This document shows positions 4,125 to 63,365 of a stretch of DNA of 64,000 nucleotides, piece by piece; position 1 is the first letter of the stretch; each line of letters starts with the position of its first letter. The notes under the pieces were generated by a model. That model searched no databases. It was not told the origin of the DNA and saw only the letters and a program-made list of their open reading frames with translations. The translations under genes were made by a program, and so were the position numbers. Origin of the DNA: Leptodactylus fallax (Eukaryota; Chordata; Amphibia; Anura; Leptodactylidae); contig CAMRHE010000168.1 of assembly GCA_947044405.1 (NCBI GenBank), positions 3,479,001 through 3,543,000 of the forward strand, read 5' to 3'.

Positions 4125-4500
4125 CTAAATAAAGCACGCATAGGAGATCCCTTCATTCAGACCCCAAGGTTTCACAGTACGTAGAATAAAGGTCCACCGG
4201 GCTTCATGTTGTAACAATTTACAATCAAAATCACCACCCCTGGGTGATGGATAAACCAGTTCAATTGCTTGAAATGCCAAGAGAGATGAATTTCCCCCAT
4301 GTTGTTCACAAATATGGCGCGCAATGGGGGTATCATCACCACGTTCAATGTCATTGATATGCCCCCTGATCCTCCTGCCGAACTCCCTAATGGTCTTACC
4401 TACATATTGGAGTCCGCAGGAGGAACAGGTTGCCAGAAATATCACCCCCTGTGTTTTACAATTTACAAAATTCCTATTTTTATACCATTTTAATGTGATA
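4125..4500 (-). pseudogene. Penelope-like GIY-YIG endonuclease domain
   Basis: This is the C-terminal nuclease of a Penelope-like element, which nicks target DNA for integration. The minus-strand frame shows a cysteine pair context (ATCSSCG) followed by the GIY-YIG core GLQYVGKTIREFGRRIRGH, with the conserved arginines after the core and HICEQHGG further on. It follows the RT remnant at 5036-4608 in the order RT then nuclease, as in the family. The domain itself is largely open, but it is cut off from a functional RT. Confidence 0.8.
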
Positions 4501-4607
4501 TTACTTCTAAATGACTTGCTAGTTTTAATGGAGCAACAGGCTCGACATTAACCACAAGGATATGTGCCCACAATTTCCCTAAATTGTTTGTTCAGCCATG
4601 TATGCGT

Positions 4608-6797: not shown

Positions 6798-7290
6798 TGT
6801 GACAATTTGTGGGGATTTAGCCTCAAAGGCGGCAGCCTCCTGGACTCCACAGAGGTGTTGGTGGTACTGGGTGCCAAATAAGCAGCATATCAGGCAGTGG
6901 TAATCCAACATAAATGGCTTTATTCAGCAAGTGGATAAAAACAGGAACAAAACAAAAAAACAGCCTAGCCCACACATAGGGCACTACCTCACTGCTTGAG
7001 CTCTGACTAGCCTCTGGGGGCAAGAAACTTTACTGAGATTTCTCCTCAGCAGCCTGGCTCACACTTAGCTCAAGCAAGTCTGCTTAGGAAATCTAGTCCT
7101 CCTGGGACAGACCACCTGTCTGTCTCCCACTGTTTCCACCGTCTACCTGCTTTCTGCAGGTCTCCTCAGCAGTCTCTCCTGCTGCGTACACTCAATCTGG
7201 AGTTGGGTCCCACCTGTGGGTGTGGCTGAGGACCTTTTTAAGCCTGGCTTTGGGTCGCTCACCAGCGCCCTCTAGGTTCACACTCTCACA
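6798..7290 (-). repeat. 3' LTR of the host-fragment retroelement
   Basis: On the minus strand it begins TGTGAGAGTG and ends TTGTCACA, the usual TG...CA form. A minus-strand AATAAA at 6919-6924 could serve as the polyadenylation signal, and an AT-rich CTTAAAAAGG near 7235 could be a TATA-like box. It pairs with 10624-11117. Confidence 0.92.
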
Positions 7291-7304
7291 TACCCTCCCC
7301 CTCA
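7291..7304 (-). other. Polypurine tract
   Basis: The minus strand reads GAGGGGGAGGGTA directly before the 3' LTR. This position and composition fit the plus-strand primer of LTR retroelements and fix the orientation of the element. Confidence 0.8.
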
Positions 7305-7494
7305 GCTCACTACCCATGGGGTGAGCGACAATGGGACAAGACATACTATGTCGACGTCCCTCTTCAATCATGTACGCTTGTCCAGTGTCTCTCCAGATGT
7401 CTTGATCTGGTGGTCTCCTTTTCCAAGTTCCGGTCAGTCGACATTTCTGGTTTCTCAGCCTCTTCTTTTTGTAGACAAATCTATCATCATATTT

Positions 7495-7638
7495 CAGCCT
7501 GTCAATTATACTGTTTTGTTCTGTACACTGGGCTTGCAAATTTTCCAGCTCCTTTACCTTTATTTCGGCATCATGGAGCTTATTTAGCGCATCCTCCAGT
7601 TCTATTAAGTGTTGCTCCTCTGCACTGTCAAGTTTAGA
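7495..7638 (-). pseudogene. Captured CLIP1/CLIP2 coiled-coil fragment, downstream piece
   Basis: About 48 residues match the coiled coil of the cytoplasmic linker proteins (CLIP-170 family), microtubule plus-end binding proteins. Visible wording is [20 protein letters not shown] then [18 protein letters not shown]. In the CLIP proteins this stretch follows, some 60 residues later, the stretch found here at 8265-8432; in this element roughly 600 bp of unrelated sequence separates them. The frame is open from 7911 through to the LTR at 7290, but the amino-terminal 90 codons (7911-7639) and the codons after 7495 match nothing I recognise. It is intronless and lies inside the LTR element. Confidence 0.78.
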
Positions 7639-7639
7639 T

Positions 7640-8260
7640 TGTAGTGTTTCATTTGGAGTATCTGATATCCCAGATGTTGAATACTGGTCAAAAAAGGTTG
7701 GAGAGCAAGCATTCATCGACATTGCAGACACAGGTAGAGTATGCTGGCTATCTGAACAGTCAAACATCAGCTCTGGATAGTCCTCATTGCTACATGATGG
7801 TGTTCTAGGAGTCTGCATGACCTCTTCATAGCTTGGGCATGAGATTACAGATGTAGGTGATGGTACACCAGTTGGCCTATTCTGATCTGGTCTTGGGGAA
7901 GCTGTGAGCACTTCCTTAATTTGGGGGCCATTCAGCTAGTCTTTAGAATCATTCCCAATCACAGCTTGTGTTTTATTTTTAGAGACAGATATATTCAAAG
8001 GGGGCAAATCTTTTGCTTTCTTTTCTTTCTGAAGAGGGTCGGTCACAGAGGTCTTCTTGTTGCTCAAATCCAAGCCGCACTTGCGCAATTCTTCAGCTTT
8101 TTTCTCTTTCAACTTAGGATCTCCAGATCGGTGCCTCATCTTTTCCATTTGTTTCATTCTTTCCTTATGCTTTTTTGTGCCTCTCTTCTATTTCAAGATC
8201 TTTCTGGCTAAACATTCTTTCAAAGCTGGTCTCCATCGCCCAACAGTTTTTCTCTTGGTC
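7640..8260 (-). other. Unidentified coding-like segments in the LTR element
   Basis: Two minus-strand frames (8157-7936 and 7911-7640) carry protein-like composition. The first is lysine-rich (KMRHRSGDPKLKEKKAEEL); the second is rich in serine and proline with [17 protein letters not shown]. They sit between the two CLIP-like pieces and may come from another host gene or from the element. I do not recognise them. Confidence 0.4.
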
Positions 8261-8264
8261 TAGT

Positions 8265-8432
8265 GTCTTTGCTAAAGGAAACAGTCAGTTCTTCCATTAT
8301 TTGCTGATGTGAACTGATGGCGGAGTCTAGTTTTGACTTCCAAAGTTCTATTACTTCTGCATTTTCCTTCTTGGCATGGCTGAGCTTTACTTTCAACGTT
8401 TCATTCTCTTTGGATGTCTTTTCTATAGATGC
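8265..8432 (-). pseudogene. Captured CLIP1/CLIP2 coiled-coil fragment, upstream piece
   Basis: About 56 residues match the CLIP-170 family coiled coil. Visible wording is [19 protein letters not shown], then [20 protein letters not shown] and TVSFSK. The frame is open and is directly continuous with the HNRNPU-like SPRY fragment upstream, joining at about 8432/8433 (SYSYSLK | ASIEK). Such a clean in-frame join of two unrelated proteins, without intron sequence, points to joining of processed RNAs rather than genomic shuffling. After SFSKD the similarity stops. Confidence 0.85.
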
Positions 8433-8863
8433 CTTCAGTGAATAGCTGTAAGAATTTTCATCTTCACCTAGCATGAATCCACAGGAGCTCAGAGACCAAC
8501 CAACACGTACTGTACTTCATGCACATCAATGTCTTTAGAGTATAAATGTTTCACGGGTACCTTTTCTATAACTTTCATCTCAAAGCAAACTTTGCCATTC
8601 GAGACACCATATGAGGCTTTTCCACCTGCCCACAGGAAGGCAAAACTCTCCATGGTGAGAGAAGTGGTGCTCAGAAGATCCCGTTAAATTTTGAAGTGAA
8701 GATCACAATTATAAGTGTCAAGAAGAATATTAGTTTCATCCAGTTTTTCATCTTCCTCTTCCACCGGTGGCTGTGGGGACTTAGACCTGGTGTATTTATT
8801 TTCTTCAATACACTAGAAGTAGCCACGACCATGATCTTCACATGGTCCTTTCACACCACGTTT
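8433..8863 (-). pseudogene. Captured HNRNPU SPRY-region fragment
   Basis: This matches the region of heterogeneous nuclear ribonucleoprotein U (scaffold attachment factor A) that leads into and covers the first half of its SPRY domain. Translating the minus strand gives [36 protein letters not shown], then [48 protein letters not shown] and [16 protein letters not shown]. Two in-frame stops (after GRGYF and after LHFKI) and a small insertion after HEV break the frame, so no full product is possible. The downstream end joins CLIP-like sequence in frame. Upstream an acidic linker (SDLPSDGDGKNQKDK) connects to the myosin-like piece. No introns are present, unlike a genomic copy. Confidence 0.9.
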
Positions 8864-8934
8864 CTTATCCTTTTGATTTTTACCATCACCATCACTGGGC
8901 AGGTCACTCATGTCTGTCTGACTTAATGGCTCTG

Positions 8935-9163
8935 CTTCCTCTGCCTCTATGCTGCCAGCTTTCTCCAATTCTAACGCCTTCTGTAGCACACAAATCGATG
9001 ATTCCAGCTCCAGATTTTTCTTCACTGCCACATTTTTCTGAGCAGCCTCCATCTCAGTTTTTACTATTGCAACTTGCAGCTCTTCCTCCTGTTTGTCCAC
9101 TTGCAGTTTTAGTTGAGCAGCAAGTATTTTTAGATCTACAATCTGAGCAGATAATTTGGACAT
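8935..9163 (-). pseudogene. Captured non-muscle myosin heavy-chain rod fragment
   Basis: About 75 residues match the coiled-coil rod of non-muscle myosin II heavy chains (MYH9/MYH10 type). The order LSAQIVDLK, LAAQLKLQVDKQEEELQVAI, EMEAAQKNVAVKK and ELESSICVLQKALELEKA follows the rod sequence closely. The frame (9187-8813) stays open into the HNRNPU-like part, ending at the stop after GRGYF. Which paralogue donated it cannot be told from this length; MYH9 wording seems nearest. Confidence 0.72.
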
Positions 9164-9203
9164 GTTTTCCTCAAACTGAATCCTCATGTCTTCTATCTGG
9201 AGG

Positions 9204-10151
9204 TCATGACAGCGCCCTTTCCAGGCTACATATTCTAGCTTTGAGTTCCATTTCTCTTTGTTCCAGAACTCCAGTTCTGCTCTGCCATTCTTTCACTTCT
9301 TGATTTAGTTGAACCTGCTTTAGTTCATGCAAGTTTTGCTCTGACTGCAATATCTGCACCACAGATTCTAAATTACTCTCTTGGTCAGACACCTCCTTCC
9401 TCAGCTCTGCAACTTCATTTTCTTTATCAATTAATGCAGCTGAAAGTTTTTCACGCTTTCTGACTTGGTCATCCAAACATTCTGAATGACACTGCAAAAA
9501 TTCACTTCTCTCACGTTTAGCAGTTTCAAGGTCATCTCTTAATTGTTCAATGACACTCTCTTTGGCAATGGAGTCTTGGACATGCTGCTCCTTTAAATCC
9601 TGCAGTTGCTTCTCAAGCACTTGCTTTTGCTCTACACTCTGTAGAACTTTATTAGATAGAGCACATTTCATTTCTGCAAACTCCTTCTTAGTGACACAGT
9701 CCATTCCAGGCAAACCCAGCACCACATTTTCACAATGACTAGGATATGAACTCTTCATAGAGTCAAGCTCTTTCTTTAACTTAAGGTTCTCTTTTTCTGA
9801 TACCTCAAGTTGCCATTTCCAATCAGATATTTCATCCTCATAAATGAACCTGATGGTTTTACTCACATCTTGAAGCTGCTGCACCATAACATTTTCTTCT
9901 TTGGCGCTTTTATGCACTCCAGTATGAGACATACAGTCAGCAGGGACATATTCATTCATAGAACAGAGGTGCTTTAGAAAAACTAAGTCACTCTCATGCA
10001 ACCTTACTTGCACTCCACATGCTCTATTCCGGGTTTTGTGTCTCTCTGCCTTGAGACTGCTACAGTAACACACCTGTGCACAGCTTTTCTGCTTTCTTAC
10101 AAACTGAAATTTTCTTTTTCTTGCCCTTGGTTCAATAACAAGATTACACAA
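9204..10151 (-). CDS. Long coiled-coil ORF in the LTR element, origin unknown
   Basis: A 315-codon open frame occupies the 5' half of the internal region. From about residue 95 it is continuous coiled coil rich in E, K, L and Q, for example KQVLEKQLQDLKEQHVQDS and KENEVAELRKEVSDQESNL. The first 90 residues are basic and cysteine-containing with no clear domain. I see no retroviral Gag motif or CCHC knuckle, so it is probably another captured host coiled-coil fragment, though an element-encoded protein is possible. The ATG at 10151 is the first in frame, about 470 bp after the 5' LTR. It ends just before the myosin-like piece begins in another frame. Confidence 0.55.
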   Translation of the reverse strand: MCNLVIEPRARKRKFQFVRKQKSCAQVCYCSSLKAERHKTRNRACGVQVRLHESDLVFLKHLCSMNEYVPADCMSHTGVHKSAKEENVMVQQLQDVSKTIRFIYEDEISDWKWQLEVSEKENLKLKKELDSMKSSYPSHCENVVLGLPGMDCVTKKEFAEMKCALSNKVLQSVEQKQVLEKQLQDLKEQHVQDSIAKESVIEQLRDDLETAKRERSEFLQCHSECLDDQVRKREKLSAALIDKENEVAELRKEVSDQESNLESVVQILQSEQNLHELKQVQLNQEVKEWQSRTGVLEQREMELKARICSLERALS

Positions 10152-10603
10152 TATTCACCAGAAATCTTGGGTTCAACCGGCAGCAACTTTTTACTATCTT
10201 CTGCAGTCACATGTATTCACCAAACAGTTAACTTATGTGGCACTACAACAACCAGCATTTTCTTCTGTCTTCCACAGAAAACACAAACATGACACCATAG
10301 CCTTTCACATAGACTGTTTGCAATATCCAGCTTCTACACACATTGCTTATTTTCTTGCCATCAGCAAGCACTTTACAGACTTCTGTGCCACAGTATACAC
10401 AAAGTCCATTCCCTGGATTCCTCTTCCAGAGTTTTACTTTCACCAGTTTTGCACACAATTTGCTATTTTGAAGTTCCACTCACCCCTCCTGGGTTTCTCA
10501 CTTGAAATCACAGACTTCTTCCAGCTGTAGGCCACAATGCACATTTAGCAGTACTGCAGTTACCAAACACTTGTCTTCCAGGACTTACGTGGATCTCATT
10601 ATG

Positions 10604-10621
10604 CCCGCATCCGAAGCACCA
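10604..10621 (-). other. Possible primer-binding site
   Basis: Two bases inside the 5' LTR the minus strand reads TGGTGCTTCGGATGCGGG. It starts with TGG, the complement of a tRNA CCA end. I could not match it to a specific tRNA. Confidence 0.5.
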
Positions 10622-10623
10622 TA

Positions 10624-11117
10624 TGTGACAATTTGGGGGGATTTAGCCTCAAAGGAGGCAGCCTCCTGGACTCCACATTGGTGTTGGTGGTACTGGGTGC
10701 CAAATAAGCAGCATATCAGGCAGTGGTAATCCAACATAAATGGCTTTATTCAGCAAGTGGATAAAAACAGGAACAAAACAAAAAAACAGCCTAGCCTACA
10801 CATAGGGCACTACCTCACTGCTTGAGCCCTCACTAGCCTCTGGGGGCAAGAAACTTTACTGAGATTTCTCCTCAGCAGCCTGGCTCACACTTAGCTCAAG
10901 CAAGTCTGCTTAGGAAATCTAGTCCTCCTGGGACAGACCACCTGTCTGTTTCCCACTGGTTCCACCGTCTACCTGCTTCCTGCAGGTCTCCTCAGCAGTC
11001 TCTCCTGCTGCGTACACTCAATCTGGAGTTGGGTCCCACCTGTGGGTGTGGCTGAGGATTTTTTTTAAGCCTGGCTTTGGGTCGCTCACCAGCGCCCTTT
11101 AGGTTCACACTCTCACA
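10624..11117 (-). repeat. 5' LTR of the host-fragment retroelement
   Basis: Nearly identical to 6798-7290 and in the same orientation. Differences are scattered substitutions and a one-base change in a T run near 11057-11064. As the upstream LTR on the minus strand it would drive the transcript. Confidence 0.92.
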
Positions 11118-12109: not shown

Positions 12110-12310
12110 TTTACCCCTGCAAACGGTATTATGCTCCATAGTGGCCCCTGCACACTGTATTATGCTCTATAGTGGCCCCTGCACACAGTATTATGCTCCA
12201 TAGTGGCCCCTGCACACAGTATTATGCTCCATAGTGGCCCCTGCACACGGTATTATGCTTCATAGTGACCCCTGCACATGGTATTATGTCCCATAGTGAC
12301 CCCCCACCCA
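12110..12310. repeat. 31-bp minisatellite, about 6 copies
   Basis: The repeating core is ATAGTGGCCCCTGCACAC followed by GGTATTATGCTCC. It directly abuts the foldback unit at 12317. The same unit, in either orientation, occurs at 16.24-16.80, 31.79-31.85, 50.78-51.12 and 56.47-56.70 kb. Confidence 0.9.
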
Positions 12311-16239: not shown

Positions 16240-16800
16240 AGAATTATGTCCCATAGTGGCCCCTGCACACGGTATATGTCCCAAAGCGGCTCCTGCACAT
16301 GGTATTATATCCCATAGTGGCCTCTGCACATGGTATTATATCCCATAGCGGCATCTGCACACTGTATTATATACCATAGAGGCCCCTGCACATGGTATTA
16401 TATCCCATAGCGGCCCCTGCACACGGTATTATATCCCATAGTGGCCCCTGCACACGGTATTATATCCCATAGCGGCCCCAGTACACTGTATATGTCCCAT
16501 AGGGGCCTCTTCACATGGTATTATATATCCCATAGCGGCCCCTGCACACCATATTATGTCCCATAGCAGCCCCTGCACATGGTATTATATCCCATAGCGG
16601 CCCCTGCACACGGTATATGTCCCATAGCGGCCCCTGCACACTGTATTATTTCCCAGAGAGGCCCCGTCACACGGCATTATGACCCATAGCGGCCCCTGCA
16701 CATGGTATTATGTCTGATATCTGCCCATGCACACAGTATATGTCCCATAGTGGCCCCTGCACACGGTATATGTCCCATAGTGGCCTCTCCAAACTGTATA
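16240..16800. repeat. 31-bp minisatellite, about 18 copies
   Basis: Copies of CATAGCGGCCCCTGCACA followed by GGTATTATGTCC are repeated with some shortened units (GGTATATGTCC). It is the largest array in this orientation. Confidence 0.92.
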
Positions 16801-16845
16801 ATATTCAAACTTTTATAATATTCCAATTTTCACCAGTCACTAGCT

Positions 16846-37041: not shown

Positions 37042-38675
37042 CAGTTGTGCTAAAAAGTTTACCTACCCCGGCAGATTTTTTTGTTTTTGGCCTTTTTTCT
37101 GAGAATATGAATGATAACACAAAAACTTTTTCTCCACTCATGGTTAGTGGTTGGTTGAAGCCATTTATTGTCAAACTTTTGTGTTTTCTCTTTTTAAATC
37201 ATAATGATAACCAAAAATATCAAAATGAACCTGTTCAAAAGTTCACATACCCTGGTGATTTTGGCCTGATAACATTCCCTAAGTTGGCACAAAGTGGTTT
37301 GAATGTCTACTACAGGTAACATCCTCACCTGTGACCTGTTAGCTTGTAATCAGTGTGTGTGCATAAAAGCTGAGTGAGTTTCTAGGATCCAGACAGACTG
37401 TTGCATCTTTTCTCTAGCCACTGTCGTTTCTGGATTGTGAGTCATGGGGAAAGCAAAAGAATTGTCCACGGATCTACGGGAAAAGGTAGTTGAACTGTAT
37501 AAAACAGGAAAGGGATACAAAAAGATATCCAAGGAATTGATAATGCCAGTTAGCAGTATTCAAACTGTGATTAACAAATGGAAACTCAGGGGTTCTGTAA
37601 AAACCAAACCACGGTCATGTAGACCAACCAAAATTTCAGCCACAACTGCCCGGAAAATTGTTTGGGATGCAAAAGAAAACCCACACATAACATCAGCTGA
37701 AATACAGGACTCTCTGAAAACTATCGTTGTGGCTGTTTCAAGATGCACAATAAGGATGCCCTTGAAGAAAAATAGGCTGCATGGTCAAGTTGGCAGAAGA
37801 AAGCCATTACTGCGCAAATGCCACAAAGAATCTCGCCTTCAATACGCCAAACAGCACAGAGACAAGCCTCAAAACTTCTGGAACAAGGTAATTTGGAGTG
37901 ATGAGACAAAAATCGAAATTTTTGGCCACAACCATAAACGTTACATTTGGAGAGGTGTCAACAAGGCCTATGATGAAAGGAACACCATTCCTACTGTAAA
38001 GCACAGAGGTGGATCACTGGGATGTGTGAGCTTCAAAGGCACAGGAAACTTGGTCAAAGTTGAAGGAAAGATGAATGCAGCATGTTATCAGCAAATACTG
38101 GAGGCAAATTTGCACTCATCAGCCAGGAAGCTGCGCATGGGACGTACTTGGACGTTCCAACATGACAATGATCCAAAACACAAGGCCAAGTCGACCTGTC
38201 ATTGGCTACAGAAGAAGAAAGTGAAGGTTCTGGAGTGGCCATCTCAGTCTCCTGACCTCAATATCATTGAGCCACTCTGGGGAGATCTCAAGTGCACAGT
38301 ACATGCAAGACAGCCCAGGAATTTACAGGAACTGGAGACTTTTTGCCAAGAAGAATAGGCAGTTTTACCATCTGAGAAATTAAAGAGCCTCATCCACAAC
38401 TACCATAAAAGACTTCAAGCTGTCATTGATGTTAGAGGGGGCAATACACGGTATTAAAAACTGGGGTATGTGAACTTTTGAACAGGGTCATTTTGATGTT
38501 TTTGGTTGTCATTATGATTTAAAAAGAGAAAACACAGAAGTTTGACAATAAATGGCTTCAACCAACCACTAACCATGAGTGGAGAAAAAGTTTTTGTGTT
38601 ATCGTTCATATTTTCTGAAAAAAGGCCAAAAAACCAAAAAATCTGCCGGGGTATATAAACTTTTTAGCACAACTG
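37042..38675 (+). mobile_element. Tc1 element B, 1.63 kb
   Basis: TA flanks at 37040-37041 and 38676-38677. Inverted termini CAGTTGTGCTAAAAAGTTTA and its inverse extend about 210 bp, to AAAAGTTCACATACCC / GGGTATGTGAACTTTT. A nearly intact transposase lies between. Confidence 0.95.
37444..38457 (+). pseudogene. Tc1 transposase, element B, one nonsense codon
   Basis: The transposase starts MGKAKELSTDLREKVVELYK at 37444. Residues 1-110 form the bipartite helix-turn-helix DNA-binding region, with a basic GRPR-like hinge changed to SCRPTK near residue 58-63. The catalytic domain has D153 (WSDETK), D241 (FQHDND) and E276 (LNIIEPLW), giving DD34E. The expected glycine-rich block near residue 189 is slightly altered (HRGGSLGCVSF). 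The single break is TAG at 38356-38358, where related proteins have tryptophan; the frame then stays open to GGNTRY and TAA at 38457. All catalytic residues precede the stop, which removes about 32 residues. Confidence 0.93.
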
Positions 38676-45289: not shown

Positions 45290-45947
45290 TGTTATGTCTC
45301 TGCCTGTTCGGGTCTCTGCGCCACCGTCTGCTCGCACGCTGTGGTGTAGGAGGTGTCCTCAGTTTGATTCTTTGCTTAGGATTCTGGATGCTTAGTCTGA
45401 ACGCGGTCCTAGTTCCCTTGCTGTGTAATGGGTTCCAAGCCACACCCGTGTTCTGAGCATTGTTTCTCTCGGGACCGCATAGAGTTAATCTTTACCTTGC
45501 CTGTGTGATTGACAGCATGTGTACCTATCAGGTGTGGGGCTGGGCCCAGACTTTCTGTATACGAGATGTCACTTTCACAGCAAGTGGCCGGTTATTGCAC
45601 TAACTTTGCCTGCTTTCTTTGTACCTTTGATTTTTACCTTGCTATTATCTCTGACCTTTGGCTTGCCTTGCGACTACTCTCTTGGATTTCGATTTGGTAC
45701 CACTTTTGCTTCTCTGGTTGTGACCCCTGGCTTGTTTACCATTCTTCTATGTTGTTTGTTTTGTTCTGTGTGTCACTTTACTCAGTATAGGGCTTGTCTT
45801 CGAGTTGTCCTTTTACCGTTTAGGGTAAACTGAGGCAATAGGAAGGGACAGTGGCTGGGGTGAGATTAGGGCTCACTTGTCTCTGTCCTTCCTCCCAGAC
45901 CCCTGCAGTAGTGTGAGGGTACTGCTACGTCTGTCAAGACCTTAACA
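45290..45947 (+). repeat. 5' LTR of the Ty3 element
   Basis: Begins TGTTATGTCTCTGCC and ends AAGACCTTAACA. It includes a segment near 45536-45590 that the 3' LTR lacks. A diverged partial copy is at 55165-55590. Confidence 0.92.
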
Positions 45948-45994
45948 GAATAACCGGCCAATAACCTTCTGCCATTGTTTCCCCTAGGATCAGC

Positions 45995-46985
45995 ATGGAT
46001 CCTATTCAGGGCCTTGCGGCCAAGTTGGAAGGTTTGTCAGGGCTGGTAGCTGAGCTTGCTAAACAGGTTCAGACCCTTACTGAGGCTGCTGCAGCATCCC
46101 CACCTGTTTCTTCCCCTTTTAAGGTGAAGATGTTACTCCCGGATCGTTTTTCAGGGGATCGTGAAAAATTTTAGACTTTCCGTGAGTCCTGTCGCCTGTA
46201 TTTTCGGATTAACCCGCATTCTTCCCATGCCCAAATGGTAGGAGTAGTTATATCCCTCCTACAAGGGGATCCACAAGCTTGGGCCCTTAAACTCACTCCT
46301 GGGGCAGAGGAGTGGATTGACTTTGAAAAATTTTTTTTTGTCCTTGGGGTCTATCTATGCTGAGCCAGACAACATTGGGCTTGCGGAATCGCAACTCCTC
46401 ACCATGCAGCAAGGCAAACGCTCTGTCGAGGAATATTGCGCAGAATTCCGCAACTGCAGTGTGACTACAGGTTGGTGTGAGTCAGCTCTTAAGGCTCACT
46501 TTAAACAAGGCCTGTGTGACTGTGTTAAGGAGGTCTGGGTTGGTCACCCAGATCCTCCCACTCTTGAGCAGGCCATGACTTTGGCTGTCCGTATTGACCG
46601 TAGGATCCGGGAAAATGTTAAAGAGAGAGTAGGGTCTGCTTCTTCCAAGTTTTCTGTCTCTCCCTCTCTCTCTTGAAAAACCTGTTATTTCTCCCATGAC
46701 TCCGGTTGAGGAGCCCATGCAACTGGGAGTTATGGACGCCAAGACGTGACAAGATCATCGTCTCAGGAACAGCCTCTGCCTGTACTGTGGTGGTTCCGGT
46801 CATTTCATCCGTGACTGCTCGATCAGACCTCGCAGACCAGCAGAAAAGCTTCAGTGCCTGAGTGGTAATCAGAAGAACCACTCAGGCAACCAGGTATTTG
46901 CTGACATGATTGCTCTGCACACTTTAAATTGTGTTACTGAGTCTGTCTCGGCTGCTAAAAGTAGGAAACACCAGGTGAATTAAAA
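45995..46985 (+). pseudogene. Ty3/gypsy Gag with CCHC zinc knuckle
   Basis: Gag packages the element RNA into a particle. The start MDPIQGLAAKLEGLSGLVAE (45995) leads to a short coiled coil, then LLPDRFSGDREKF and a capsid-like region LYFRINPHSSHAQM, VVISLLQGDPQAWALKL. A TAG stop lies at 46172-46174 and a frameshift at the T run near 46330. Capsid continues as LLTMQQGKRSVEEYCAEFRN in another frame (46317-46676). A zinc knuckle CLYCGGSGHFIRDC is at 46778-46819 with the pattern C-x2-C-x4-H-x4-C. The layout resembles the Sushi-ichi type Gag from which mammalian RTL genes arose; that assignment is by wording only. The copy cannot make an intact Gag. Confidence 0.85.
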
Positions 46986-47118: not shown

Positions 47119-47724
47119 TGTTATGTCTCTGTTCGGGTCTCTGCGCCACCATCTGCTGACACGCTGTGGCGTAGGAGGCGTCCTCGGTTTGATTCTTTGC
47201 TTAGGATTCTGGATGCTTAGTCTGAACGCAGTTCTAGTTCCCTTGCTGAGTAATGGATTCCAAGCCACACCCATGTTCTGAGCATTGTTTCTCTCTGGAC
47301 CGCATAGAGTCTATCTTTACCTTGCCTGTGTGATTGACAGCCTGTGTACCTATCAGGTCTGGGGCCGGTTATTGCACTGACTTTGCCTGCTTTCTTTGTA
47401 CCTTTGATTTTTACCTTGCTATTATCTCTGACCTTTGGCTTGCCTTGCGACTACTCTCTTGGATTTCGATTTGGTACCACTTTTGCTTCTCTGGTTGTGA
47501 CCCCTGGCTTGTTTACCATTCTCCTCTGTTGTTTGTCTTGTTCTGTGTGTCACTTTACTCAGTATAGGGCTTGTCTTCGAGTTGTCCTTTTACCGTTTAG
47601 GGTAAACTGAAGCAATAGGAAGGGACAGTGGCTGGGGTGAGATTAGGGCTCACTTGTCTCTGTCCTTCCTCCCAGACCCCTGCAGTAGTGTGAGGGTATT
47701 GCTATGTCTGGCAAGACACTAACA
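47119..47724 (+). repeat. 3' LTR of the Ty3 element
   Basis: Direct repeat of 45290-45947 with one internal deletion; followed by the GACAT duplication. Confidence 0.92.
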
Positions 47725-47916
47725 GACATGCTGCGATTTACAAAACCTCAACGGTTTTTAAAATCACAGCATGTGCGCTGCAGATATTTTTATGCAATGT
47801 GTGGAAGGGATTAGCCAGAATCTCATCCACTTTGCAGGTACTGTATAACACAGGTTTTTGCCAAGGCGTTTCCACTGTAGCAAAATTGCGGCATTTACGC
47901 TATGTGGGGCTTTAGC

Positions 47917-50779: not shown

Positions 50780-51125
50780 GGTTGTCCACTATGGGGCAAA
50801 CTACTGTGTGCAGGGGCCACTATGGGGAATGATACTGTGTGCAGGGCCACTATGGGGAATGATACTGTGTGCAGGGCCACTATGGGGCATGATACTGTGT
50901 GCAGGGGCCACTATGGGGCATGATACTGTGTGCAGGGGCCACTATGGCGAATGATACTGTGTGCAGGGGCCACTATGGGGCATGATACTGTGTGCAGGGG
51001 CCACTATGGGGCATGATACTGTGTGCAGGGGCCACTATGGGGAATGATACTGTGTGCAGGGGCCACTATGGGACATGATACTGTGTGCAGGGGCCACTAT
51101 GGGGCATGATAATGTGTGCAGGGAA
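50780..51125. repeat. 31-bp minisatellite, about 11 copies
   Basis: Highly regular units of GGGGCCACTATGGGGCATGA followed by TACTGTGTGCA. Copies are nearly identical, so the array is young or homogenised. Confidence 0.95.
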
Positions 51126-53219: not shown

Positions 53220-54782
53220 CAGTCATGGCCAAAAGTTTTGAGAATGACACAAATATTATATTTTCACATGATCTGCTGCCCTGTGGTTTTTATGTGTGTT
53301 TGTCAGATGTTTTTATCACATACAGAAATAGAATTGCATTCATATTATGAGTAACAGAAGCTTATATTGACAGTTAGAATGAGTTAATGCAGCAAGTCAA
53401 TATTTGCAGTGTTGACCCTTCTTCTTCAGGACCTCTGCAATTCTCCCTGGCATGCTCTCAATCAACTTCTGGACCAAATCCTGACTGATAGCAGTCCATT
53501 CTTGCAGAATCAATGCTTTAATTTTGTCTGAATTTGTTGGTTTTTGTTTGTCCACCGTCTCTTGATGATTGACCACAAGTTCTCAATGGGATTAAGATCT
53601 GGGGAGTTTCCAGGCCATGGACCCAAAATCTCTATGTTTTGTTCCCTGAGCCATTTAGTTATCACCTTTGCTATATGGCAAGGTGCTCCATCATGCTGGA
53701 AAAGGCATTGTTGAGCGCCAAACTGCTCTTGGACGGTTGGGAGAAGTTGCTCTTGGAGGACATTCTGGTACCATTCTTTATTCATGGCTGTGTTTTTAGG
53801 CAAGACTGTGAGAGAGCCGATTCCCTTGGCTGAGAATCCCCACACATGAATGGTTTCAGGATGCTTTACAGTTGGCATGAGACAAGACTGGTGGTAGCGC
53901 TCACCTCTTCTTCTCCGAATAAGCTGTTTTCCAGATGTTCCAAACAATCGAAAAGGGGATTCATCAGAGAAAATGACTTTACCCCAGTCCTCAGCAGTCC
54001 ACTCCCTGTACCTTTTGCAGAATATCAGTCTGTCCCTGATGTTTTTTCTGGAGAGAAGTGGCTTCTTTGCTGCCCTCCTTGAGACCAGGCCTTGCTCCAA
54101 GAGTCTCCGCCTCACAGTGCGTGCAGATGCACTCACACCTGCCTGCTGCCATTCCTCAGCATGCTCTGCACTGCTGGTAGCCCGATCCCGCAGCTGAAAC
54201 ACTTTTAAGAGACGGTCCTGCCGCTTGCTGGTCTTTCTTGGGCGCCCTGGAGCCTTTTTGGCACCAATGGAACCTCTCTCCTTGAAGTTCTTGATGATGC
54301 CATAGATTGTTGACTGAGGTGCAATCTTTCTAGCTGCAATACTCTTCCCAGTTAGGCCATTTTTGTGCAGTGCAATGATGACTGCACGTGTTTCTTTAGA
54401 GATAACCATGGTTAACAGAAGAGAAACAATGATGGAAAGCACCAGCCTCCTTTTAAAGTGTCCAGTGGTGTCATTCTTACTTAATCATGACAGATTGATC
54501 TCCAGCCCTGTCCTCATCTACACCCACACCTGTGTTAATGGAGCAATCACTGAAACGATGTTAGGTGGTCCTTTTACGGCAGGGCTGCAATGATGTTGAA
54601 ATGTGTTTTGGGGGATAAAGTTCATTTTCTAGGCAAATATTGACTTTGCAAGTAATTGCTGTTAAGCTGATCACTCTTTATAACATTCTGGAGTATATGC
54701 AAATTGCCATTAGAAAAACTGAAGCAGTAGACTTTGTAAAAATTAATATTTGTATCATTCTCAAAACTTTTGGCCATGACTG
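53220..54782 (-). mobile_element. Tc1/mariner element C, 1.56 kb
   Basis: TA flanks at 53218-53219 and 54783-54784. Inverted ends CAGTCATGGCCAAAAGTTTT and its inverse continue through GAGAATGAYACAAATATT. The transposase on the minus strand is open for over 90 percent of its length. Confidence 0.95.
53397..54409 (-). pseudogene. Tc1-type transposase with DD35E spacing, one frameshift
   Basis: The likely start is MVISKETRAVIIALHKNGLT at 54409; an in-frame ATG 11 codons upstream (54442) lacks family similarity. The DNA-binding region contains KKAPGRPRKTSKRQD with the GRPR hinge. The catalytic residues, counted from 54409, are D149 (IFSDESPFRLFG), D240 (QHDGAPCH) and E276 ([11 protein letters not shown]). 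The last two are separated by 35 residues, not the 34 of the other copies here. A one-base deletion near 53552 (after KRR) shifts the frame and ends it early at 53510; the original frame, reading QEWTAISQDLVQKLIESMP, continues to a stop at 53397. No nonsense codon precedes the deletion. Confidence 0.92.
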
Positions 54783-56469: not shown

Positions 56470-56691
56470 TGTAGGGGCCACTATGGGACATAATACTGTG
56501 TGGGGGGGCACAATGGAACATTATACTGTGTGGAGGAACTGCTATGGGACATTATGCTGTGAGGAGGGGCCATTTTGTGACATTATGCTGTGTGGAGGAT
56601 CACTGTGGGACATTATACTGTGTGGAGGGGCCAATATGGCACATAATACGGTGTGGAGGGGCTACTGTGGGACATTATACTGTGTGGAGGT
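56470..56691. repeat. 31-bp minisatellite, about 7 copies, interrupted
   Basis: Units of GGGGCCACTATGGGACATTA then TACTGTGTGGA. One to two further units are found at 57662-57710 beyond the insertion. Confidence 0.88.
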
Positions 56692-59897: not shown

Positions 59898-61541
59898 CAG
59901 TCATATGAAAAAGTTTGGGCACCCCTATTAATCTTAATCATTTTTAGTTCTAAATATTTGGGTGTTTGCAACAGCCATTTCAATTTGATATATCTAATAA
60001 CTGATGGACACAGTAATATTTCAGGATTGAAATGAGGTTTATTGTACTAACAGAAAATGTGCAATATGCATTAAACCAAAATTTGACCGGTGCAAAAGTA
60101 TGGGCACCTCAACAGAAAAGTGACATTAATATTTAGTAGATCCTCCTTTTGCAAAAATAACAGCCTCTAGTCACTTCCTGTAGCTTTTAACCAGTTCCTG
60201 GATCCTGGATGAAGGTATTTTTGACCATTCCTCTTTACAAAACAATTCCAGTTCAGTTAAGTTTGATGGTCGCCGAGCATGGACTGTCCGCTTCAAATTA
60301 TCCCACAGATGTTCAATGATATTCAGGTCTGGGGACTGGGATGGCCATTCCAGAACATTGTAATTGTTCCTCTGCATGAATGCCTGAGTAGATTTGGAGC
60401 TGTGTTTTGGATCATTGTCTTGCTGAAATATTCATCCCCGGCGTAACTTCAAATTCGTCACTGATTCTTGTACATTATTCTCAAGAATCTGCTGATACTG
60501 AGTTGAATCCATGCGACCCTCAACTTTAACAAGATTCCCGGTGCCGGCATTGGCCACACAGCCCCAAAGCATGATGGAACCTCCACCAAATTTTACAGTG
60601 GGTAGCATGTGGTTTTCTTGGAATGCTGTGTTTTTTTGACGCCATGCATAACACCTTTTTGTATGACCAAACAACTCAATCTTTGTTTCATCAGTCCACA
60701 GGACCTTCTTCCAAAATGAAGCTGGCTTGTCCAAATGTGCTTTTGCATACCTCAGGCGACTCTGTTTGTGGCGTGCTTTCAGAAACGGCTTCTTTCGCAT
60801 CACTCTCCCATACAGCTTCTCCTTGTGCAAAGTGTGCTGTATTGTTGACCGATGCACAGTGACACCATCTGCAGCAAGATGATGCTGCAGCTCTTTGGAG
60901 GTGGTCTGTGGATTGTCCTTGACTGTTCTCACCATTCTTCTTCTCTGACTTTCTGATATTTTTCTTGGCCTGCCACTTCTGGGCTTAACAAGAACTGTCC
61001 CTGTGGTCTTCCATTTCCTTACTATGTTCCTCACAGTGGAAACTGAAAGGTTAAATCTCTGAGACAACTTTTTGTATCCTTCCCCTGCACAACTATGTTG
61101 AACAATCTTTGTTTTCAGATCATTTGAGAGTTGTTTTGAGGAGCCCATGATGCCACTCTTCAGAGGAGATTCAAATAGGAGAACAACTTGCAATTGGCCA
61201 CCTTAAATACCTTTTCTCATGATTGGATACACCTGGCTATGAAGTTCAAAGCTCAGTGAGGTTACAAAACCAATTTTGTGCTTCAGTAAGTCAGTAAAAA
61301 GTAGTTAGGAGTATTCAAATCAATAAAATGATAAGGGTACCCAAATTTTTGCACCGGTCAAATTTTGGTTTAATGCATATTGCACATTTTCTGTTAGTAC
61401 ACTAAACCTCATTTCAATCCTGAAATATTACTGTGTCCATCAGTTATTAGATATATCAAATTGAAATGGCTGTTGCAAACACCCAAATATTTAGAACTAA
61501 ATATGATTAAGATTAATAGGGGTGCCCAAACTTTTTCATAT

Positions 61542-62612: not shown

Positions 62613-63365
<753 letters not shown>

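Follow-up and report, generated by a model that had tools for sequence, protein, structure and literature searches.

Elements bounded by long terminal repeats (LTRs) are known to capture host mRNAs through template switching (PMC5408686, in its accessible portion), and gene capture by such elements is named in general terms in the accessible text of another paper (PMC8232201). In the maize element Bs1, as described in the available part of the report, segments of three host genes, none of them with a full-length open reading frame (ORF), reside within one LTR element (PMC13317346). Here we describe an element from the frog Leptodactylus fallax that resembles Bs1, as there described, in that protein-coding stretches from several host genes lie between its LTRs. 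It lies in a 64,000-nucleotide stretch of contig CAMRHE010000168.1 (positions 3,479,001 to 3,543,000 of the forward strand), which is the window analyzed throughout. Bs1 is a plant element with three donors in that description, whereas the frog element has at least four, one of which is located within the stretch contributed by another.

Vertebrate LTR genomes that carry more than one host gene, as the frog element does, include those of the acutely transforming retroviruses E26, MH2, and AEV-ES4, each with two. Unlike the frog element, these viruses carry oncogenes together with retained viral genes. LTR-mediated retroposition in metazoans was reportedly described by Tan et al. in 2016. According to the accessible portion of a review, template switching at microsimilarities joins host mRNAs to LTR elements in this process, with zebrafish and chicken among the animals included, and such switching could in theory happen several times (PMC5408686). 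The same portion concerns retrocopies of a parental gene and makes no mention of a chain of several donors. Among crocodilian endogenous retroviruses, CrocERV29 captured KIT-ligand and CrocERV31 captured nectin3, which amounts to one host gene per group, and the authors state in the available text that these host-derived reading frames are under purifying selection (PMC4299795). The crocodilian and frog elements, so far as the former are described there, are both vertebrate LTR elements with captured host mRNA, but the frog element contains short internal pieces, two of which have stops and frameshifts. In the open-licence literature, to the extent that its texts were accessible, we found no description of an LTR element in a vertebrate that combines at least four donors. 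Searches with two sets of six peptides, meant to name the donors, found no paper printing them.

The frog element spans positions 11117 to 6798 on the minus strand and consists of a direct LTR pair around a 3.3-kb body. In the sense direction from 5′ to 3′, this body presents a coiled coil, a piece of the MYH9 rod, HNRNPU, CLIP1, ANKRD11, and again CLIP1, such that at least four unrelated host genes (MYH9, HNRNPU, CLIP1, and ANKRD11) are its donors. We consider it likely that the element is a non-autonomous LTR retroelement in which host-mRNA fragments, chained together via template switching, have taken the place of the coding region. Its features, all on the minus strand and given in sense order, are as follows.

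10624–11117, 5′ LTR of 494 bp, with TGTGA...TCACA ends and an AATAAA signal
10604–10621, candidate primer-binding site, a stretch that starts with TGG, 2 nucleotides inside the 5′ LTR
9960–10623, leader without recognized coding sequence, including a 78-amino-acid ORF that has no family
9207–9959, coiled-coil ORF of 251 amino acids from Met to stop, with its stop codon at 9204–9206
8933–9199, MYH9 rod fragment, equivalent to human MYH9 residues 1045–1133
8427–8890, HNRNPU fragment, equivalent to Leptodactylus residues 184–336, with two in-frame stops and one frameshift at ~8510
8268–8441, CLIP1 fragment a, equivalent to Mixophyes residues 541–598, sharing the SLKGS codons (8427–8441) with HNRNPU
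7651–8270, ANKRD11 fragment, equivalent to Staurois residues 58 to ~270, with one stop and two frameshifts
7495–7650, CLIP1 fragment b, equivalent to Mixophyes residues ~664–713
7304–7494, tail, with no donor match above shuffled sequences
7293–7303, polypurine tract GAGGGGGAGGG, which ends 2 bases short of the 3′ LTR
6798–7290, 3′ LTR of 493 bp

The two LTRs lie exactly where the original prediction, which was made from the letters of this DNA without database searches, had placed repeats of 493 and 494 bp. Read in the sense orientation, both copies start with TGTGAGAG and end with TTGTCACA. The aligned pair has 13 mismatches among 493 sites and one gap column, giving a Kimura two-parameter distance of 0.027, and blastn reports 97.2% identity. 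When up to three mismatches are allowed, a 27-nucleotide LTR end has two matches across the window, one per LTR. A 23-nucleotide LTR segment had no matches among genome contigs, and a 14-nucleotide segment gave 51 exact-match stretches among viral contigs, which we regard as chance.

Between these repeats, the seven body ORFs match no gag, pol, or env family of Pfam at E ≤ 1, in agreement with the earlier claim that pol is missing. With neither gag nor pol among these ORFs, the element is unlike an autonomous LTR retrotransposon or endogenous retrovirus. Among the Pfam matches of the seven, Myosin_tail_1 (E = 5.5e-12) alone exceeds its curated cut-off, and NCBIfam returned nothing except matches well below curated cut-offs.

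Three of the donors were identified by searching a database of 5.8 billion proteins, and the fragments were then placed by tblastn of the retrieved donor proteins. For HNRNPU (E = 6.4e-69), the best of the matches listed, which comprise the best 120 of 493 proteins at E ≤ 1, is from Leptodactylus fuscus (89% identity). The HNRNPU frame piece alone yielded just one weak bacterial match from the PDB. The search for ANKRD11 and CLIP1, whose length range was set to keep full-length ANKRD11 from hiding CLIP1, retrieved 43 proteins at E ≤ 1. These include ANKRD11 from Staurois parvus (E = 4.8e-51, 81%), with 137 of 175 residues identical in the longest frame, and CLIP1 from Bombina bombina (E = 1.7e-12, 78%). 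CLIP1 fragment a is identical to Mixophyes CLIP1 at 50 of 58 residues, and any pair among five amphibian CLIP1 proteins reaches at most 0.78. Fragment b does not discriminate between species (it shares 40 of 52 residues with Mixophyes and 41 of 52 with Bombina). The protein P0123, considered as one that might span both ANKRD11 and CLIP1, looks instead like a relative of ANKRD11 that carries a loose extension.

The fourth donor emerged from a search of 177,635 PDB sequences, where the myosin piece matches MYH9 with E = 2.5e-10 and is identical to the human protein at 42 of 89 residues. All six distinct PDB sequences retrieved at E ≤ 1 are class II myosins, with MYH9 scoring highest, and a trimmed version of the piece retained the match (E = 7.3e-11) with myosins as all five hits. 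The reversed piece, which served as a control, found no myosin and gave two sarcoglycans at E values of 0.19 and 0.29. Thus, the original prediction named MYH9, HNRNPU, and CLIP1 correctly and missed ANKRD11, which resides between the CLIP1 pieces. The finding that it had named as telling against it, a lack of significant protein matches to these families, did not materialize, because the matches are strong. The five fragments with identified donors share the sense orientation of the element, also as foreseen, and each is an internal coding piece that stops short of the C-terminus of its donor.

The arrangement of the fragments is informative regarding how they were joined. The HNRNPU and CLIP1 pieces overlap by five codons at their joint, where the element has YSLKAS, its counterparts being YSLKGS in Leptodactylus HNRNPU and ESLKGS in Mixophyes CLIP1. 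A stretch common to both donors at their joint points to RNA template switching, although the nucleotide match presumed here is deduced from the proteins. In addition, the ANKRD11 piece is nested within CLIP1 sequence that is otherwise collinear, replacing about 65 CLIP1 residues, and this too argues for template switching between RNAs.

We also evaluated whether further segments of the body can be assigned to donors. The coiled-coil ORF is part of a 316-amino-acid run free of stops, compared with a maximum of 116 among 500 shuffled sequences. When it was searched against proteins of ~670 to 2131 amino acids, none of 2554 candidates reached E ≤ 0.001; the PDB gave nothing at E ≤ 1, and viral contigs gave zero matches. 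An assignment of this coiled coil (9207–9959) to CLIP1 was rejected, as the best score among 27 CLIP1 or CLIP1-like records was 138, versus 139 for the same proteins reversed; the score of 138 does exceed those of all 300 heptad-preserving shuffles (maximum 137). An HNRNPU-like match in the leader is weak and was equaled by 22 of 300 shuffles. Similarly, an eight-residue stretch of the tail, LQKEEAEK, considered as a candidate for a further part of HNRNPU, was matched in score by 42 of 500 shuffles. Because neither HNRNPU-like match is better than shuffled sequence, we do not claim an onion-like arrangement of HNRNPU, CLIP1, ANKRD11, CLIP1, and HNRNPU.

To place the HNRNPU piece among its relatives, we examined a tree of 27 rows and 127 columns based on the first HNRNPU piece only. 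The element groups with Leptodactylus with weak support (87/78), and both fall inside a clade (97/91) whose ten rows are from Hyloidea and Myobatrachoidea, in a tree where 14 of 24 inner branches remain open and the bootstrap did not converge. For Leptodactylus and Mixophyes the superfamily was established by look-up, and we presume the remaining group labels to apply. The branch leading to the element has a length of 0.10, compared with 0.008 for Leptodactylus. Taken by itself, the placement of HNRNPU would suggest a hyloid frog as host, perhaps a leptodactylid, and CLIP1 fragment a is in line with this.

Over 127 HNRNPU codons, 13 states of the element are absent from the 29 best-matching records, which are from frogs where named; 11 of these states fall at invariant columns and two are stops. 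By our own calculation, which assumes 2.2 nonsynonymous sites per codon and takes half the LTR distance as the time since insertion, neutral change would have produced ~3.8 HNRNPU changes (P ~2e-4, or 6e-4 for 12 changes). An excess of changes over the age of the LTRs suggests that capture is probably older than this insertion, and that the patchwork probably went through at least one further copying. Some of these changes could also stem from error-prone reverse transcription. Positions specific to the element number 3 of 58 and 7 of 52 in the two CLIP1 pieces relative to five amphibian proteins, and 30 of 176 in ANKRD11 relative to five records, one of them a named frog. Because there is no named hyloid CLIP1 among the 43 proteins, drift and differences between species are confounded in these counts.

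These observations are consistent with a process in which RNA of the element would be transcribed from its LTR and then packaged and reverse transcribed by the proteins of another element. The reverse transcriptase would switch templates among co-packaged RNAs and thereby join fragments of a coiled-coil gene, MYH9, HNRNPU, CLIP1, and ANKRD11, which might be added over one or more rounds of copying. The simplest history for the nested pieces would be that copying left a CLIP1-bearing template for ANKRD11 mRNA and then returned, and the patchwork would afterward be recopied into the site where it now lies. Because the HNRNPU and ANKRD11 pieces have stops and frameshifts, the captured fragments are probably passengers. 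With no fewer than four donors joined within coding sequence, one of them nested in another, the element preserves signs that templates were switched repeatedly between host messages and a retroelement. Should it have further copies, the sequences alone could reveal in what order and when the pieces were captured, and such copies would test chimera formation in a single round versus stepwise addition.

A more far-reaching proposal, which we offer tentatively and hold to be doubtful, is that a family of frog LTR elements gathers host mRNA fragments in a stepwise manner. The outer coiled coil and MYH9 pieces would then be the oldest and are still open, and the inner pieces would be the youngest and have decayed, such that the family would form a layered archive of germline mRNAs. 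ANKRD11 inside CLIP1 would be a clear case of splicing a new mRNA into an existing body. Perhaps such a family is biased toward A/G-rich coiled-coil messages, owing to short matches that they have in common. The purine share of the sense strand is 0.59 in the body (0.55 to 0.64 in its segments) and 0.53 in the LTRs, and A/G-richness may favor switches between such messages, which we put forward as an idea. This richness is a weak hallmark of the body, because the 2.7-kb stretches with the strongest skew lie elsewhere in the window (0.61, with starts at 701–1501).

Several observations weigh against the favored reading of the element as a non-autonomous LTR retroelement assembled by template switching. 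The myosin piece has diverged much further than that of HNRNPU but has no stops in 89 codons, and a piece that is both diverged and free of stops is a poor fit to a simple neutral passenger. Either the donor was a diverged myosin, or the piece belongs to an older 5′ part that was kept open. The joint between HNRNPU and CLIP1 is less exact in other amphibian CLIP1 proteins (LKVS in Bombina, LKAS in Spea), so its exactness rests on Mixophyes. The apparent loss of donor introns is deduced from protein alignments that run without interruption. With regard to terminal signals, the purine tract and the TGG-starting stretch (10604–10621) are positioned as the original prediction had indicated, but the latter has no assigned primer tRNA, and ARAGORN detected no tRNAs within the window. 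Lastly, no clear target-site duplication is evident, as the flanking five bases are CCTTT and CTCTT; a duplication may have been lost by mutation or recombination.

An alternative explanation is that machinery of long interspersed nuclear elements (LINEs) made a chimeric retrocopy by template-jumping over several mRNAs, and that this copy landed in an LTR element of the ordinary kind, which later lost its own genes. ORFs in the window that we take, by eye, to encode LINE-like reverse transcriptases are in keeping with such an origin. Moreover, chimeras involving LINE RNA are a known class, according to the accessible part of one report (PMC13174262). We nevertheless judge this explanation improbable. 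The body includes no A or T run of eight or more, zones 10623–9700 and 7700–7291 have no exact direct repeat longer than 9 nucleotides in common, and none of the internal fragments extends to the C-terminus of its donor. The poly(A) tail and flanking target duplication that mark processed pseudogenes were not found in the body, and a separate retrogene insertion inside the LTR element, the other outcome that had been named as damaging to the original prediction, is thus not borne out.

The missing target-site duplication would be accommodated by a patchwork built at the DNA level, wherein the body arose from gene loci or processed pseudogenes that were joined through recombination or repair, and was flanked by the insertion of two related LTRs. 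This scenario is also quite improbable, given that the LTRs are direct and 97.2% identical, that a purine tract is correctly placed, and that five fragments are in the sense orientation, each aligned without an interrupting non-coding stretch. An artifact of genome assembly or transcript contamination, for which we see no point in favor, is highly improbable, as the element sits within repeat-rich sequence and its HNRNPU and ANKRD11 pieces bear element-only changes, stops, and frameshifts, unlike contaminating cDNA. We therefore continue to favor a non-autonomous LTR retroelement assembled by template switching.

Other repeats are present in the window. Direct repeats at 45290–45949 and 47119–47726 are 88% identical over 660 aligned positions and enclose a Retrotrans_gag ORF (46248–46676, E = 3.5e-5), perhaps representing a short LTR element with a gag piece. 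A 31-bp minisatellite (the CCCCTGCACACGGTATTATG... type) is dispersed at 12114–12303, 16243–16804, 50786–51123, and ~56470–56690, with the fourth array seen via self-comparison of the window. Each array has similar flanks of several hundred bases, as if one dispersed repeat family carries them. An ORF on the minus strand at 4125–4547 has a weak GIY-YIG match under the cut-off and presumably resembles a Penelope-like element. Finally, long ORFs resembling Tc1/mariner transposases are visible by eye at 37441–38358, 53510–54484, 60432–61202, and 62675–63229. That at 53510–54484 was confirmed in Pfam, and inverted repeats surround some of the others.

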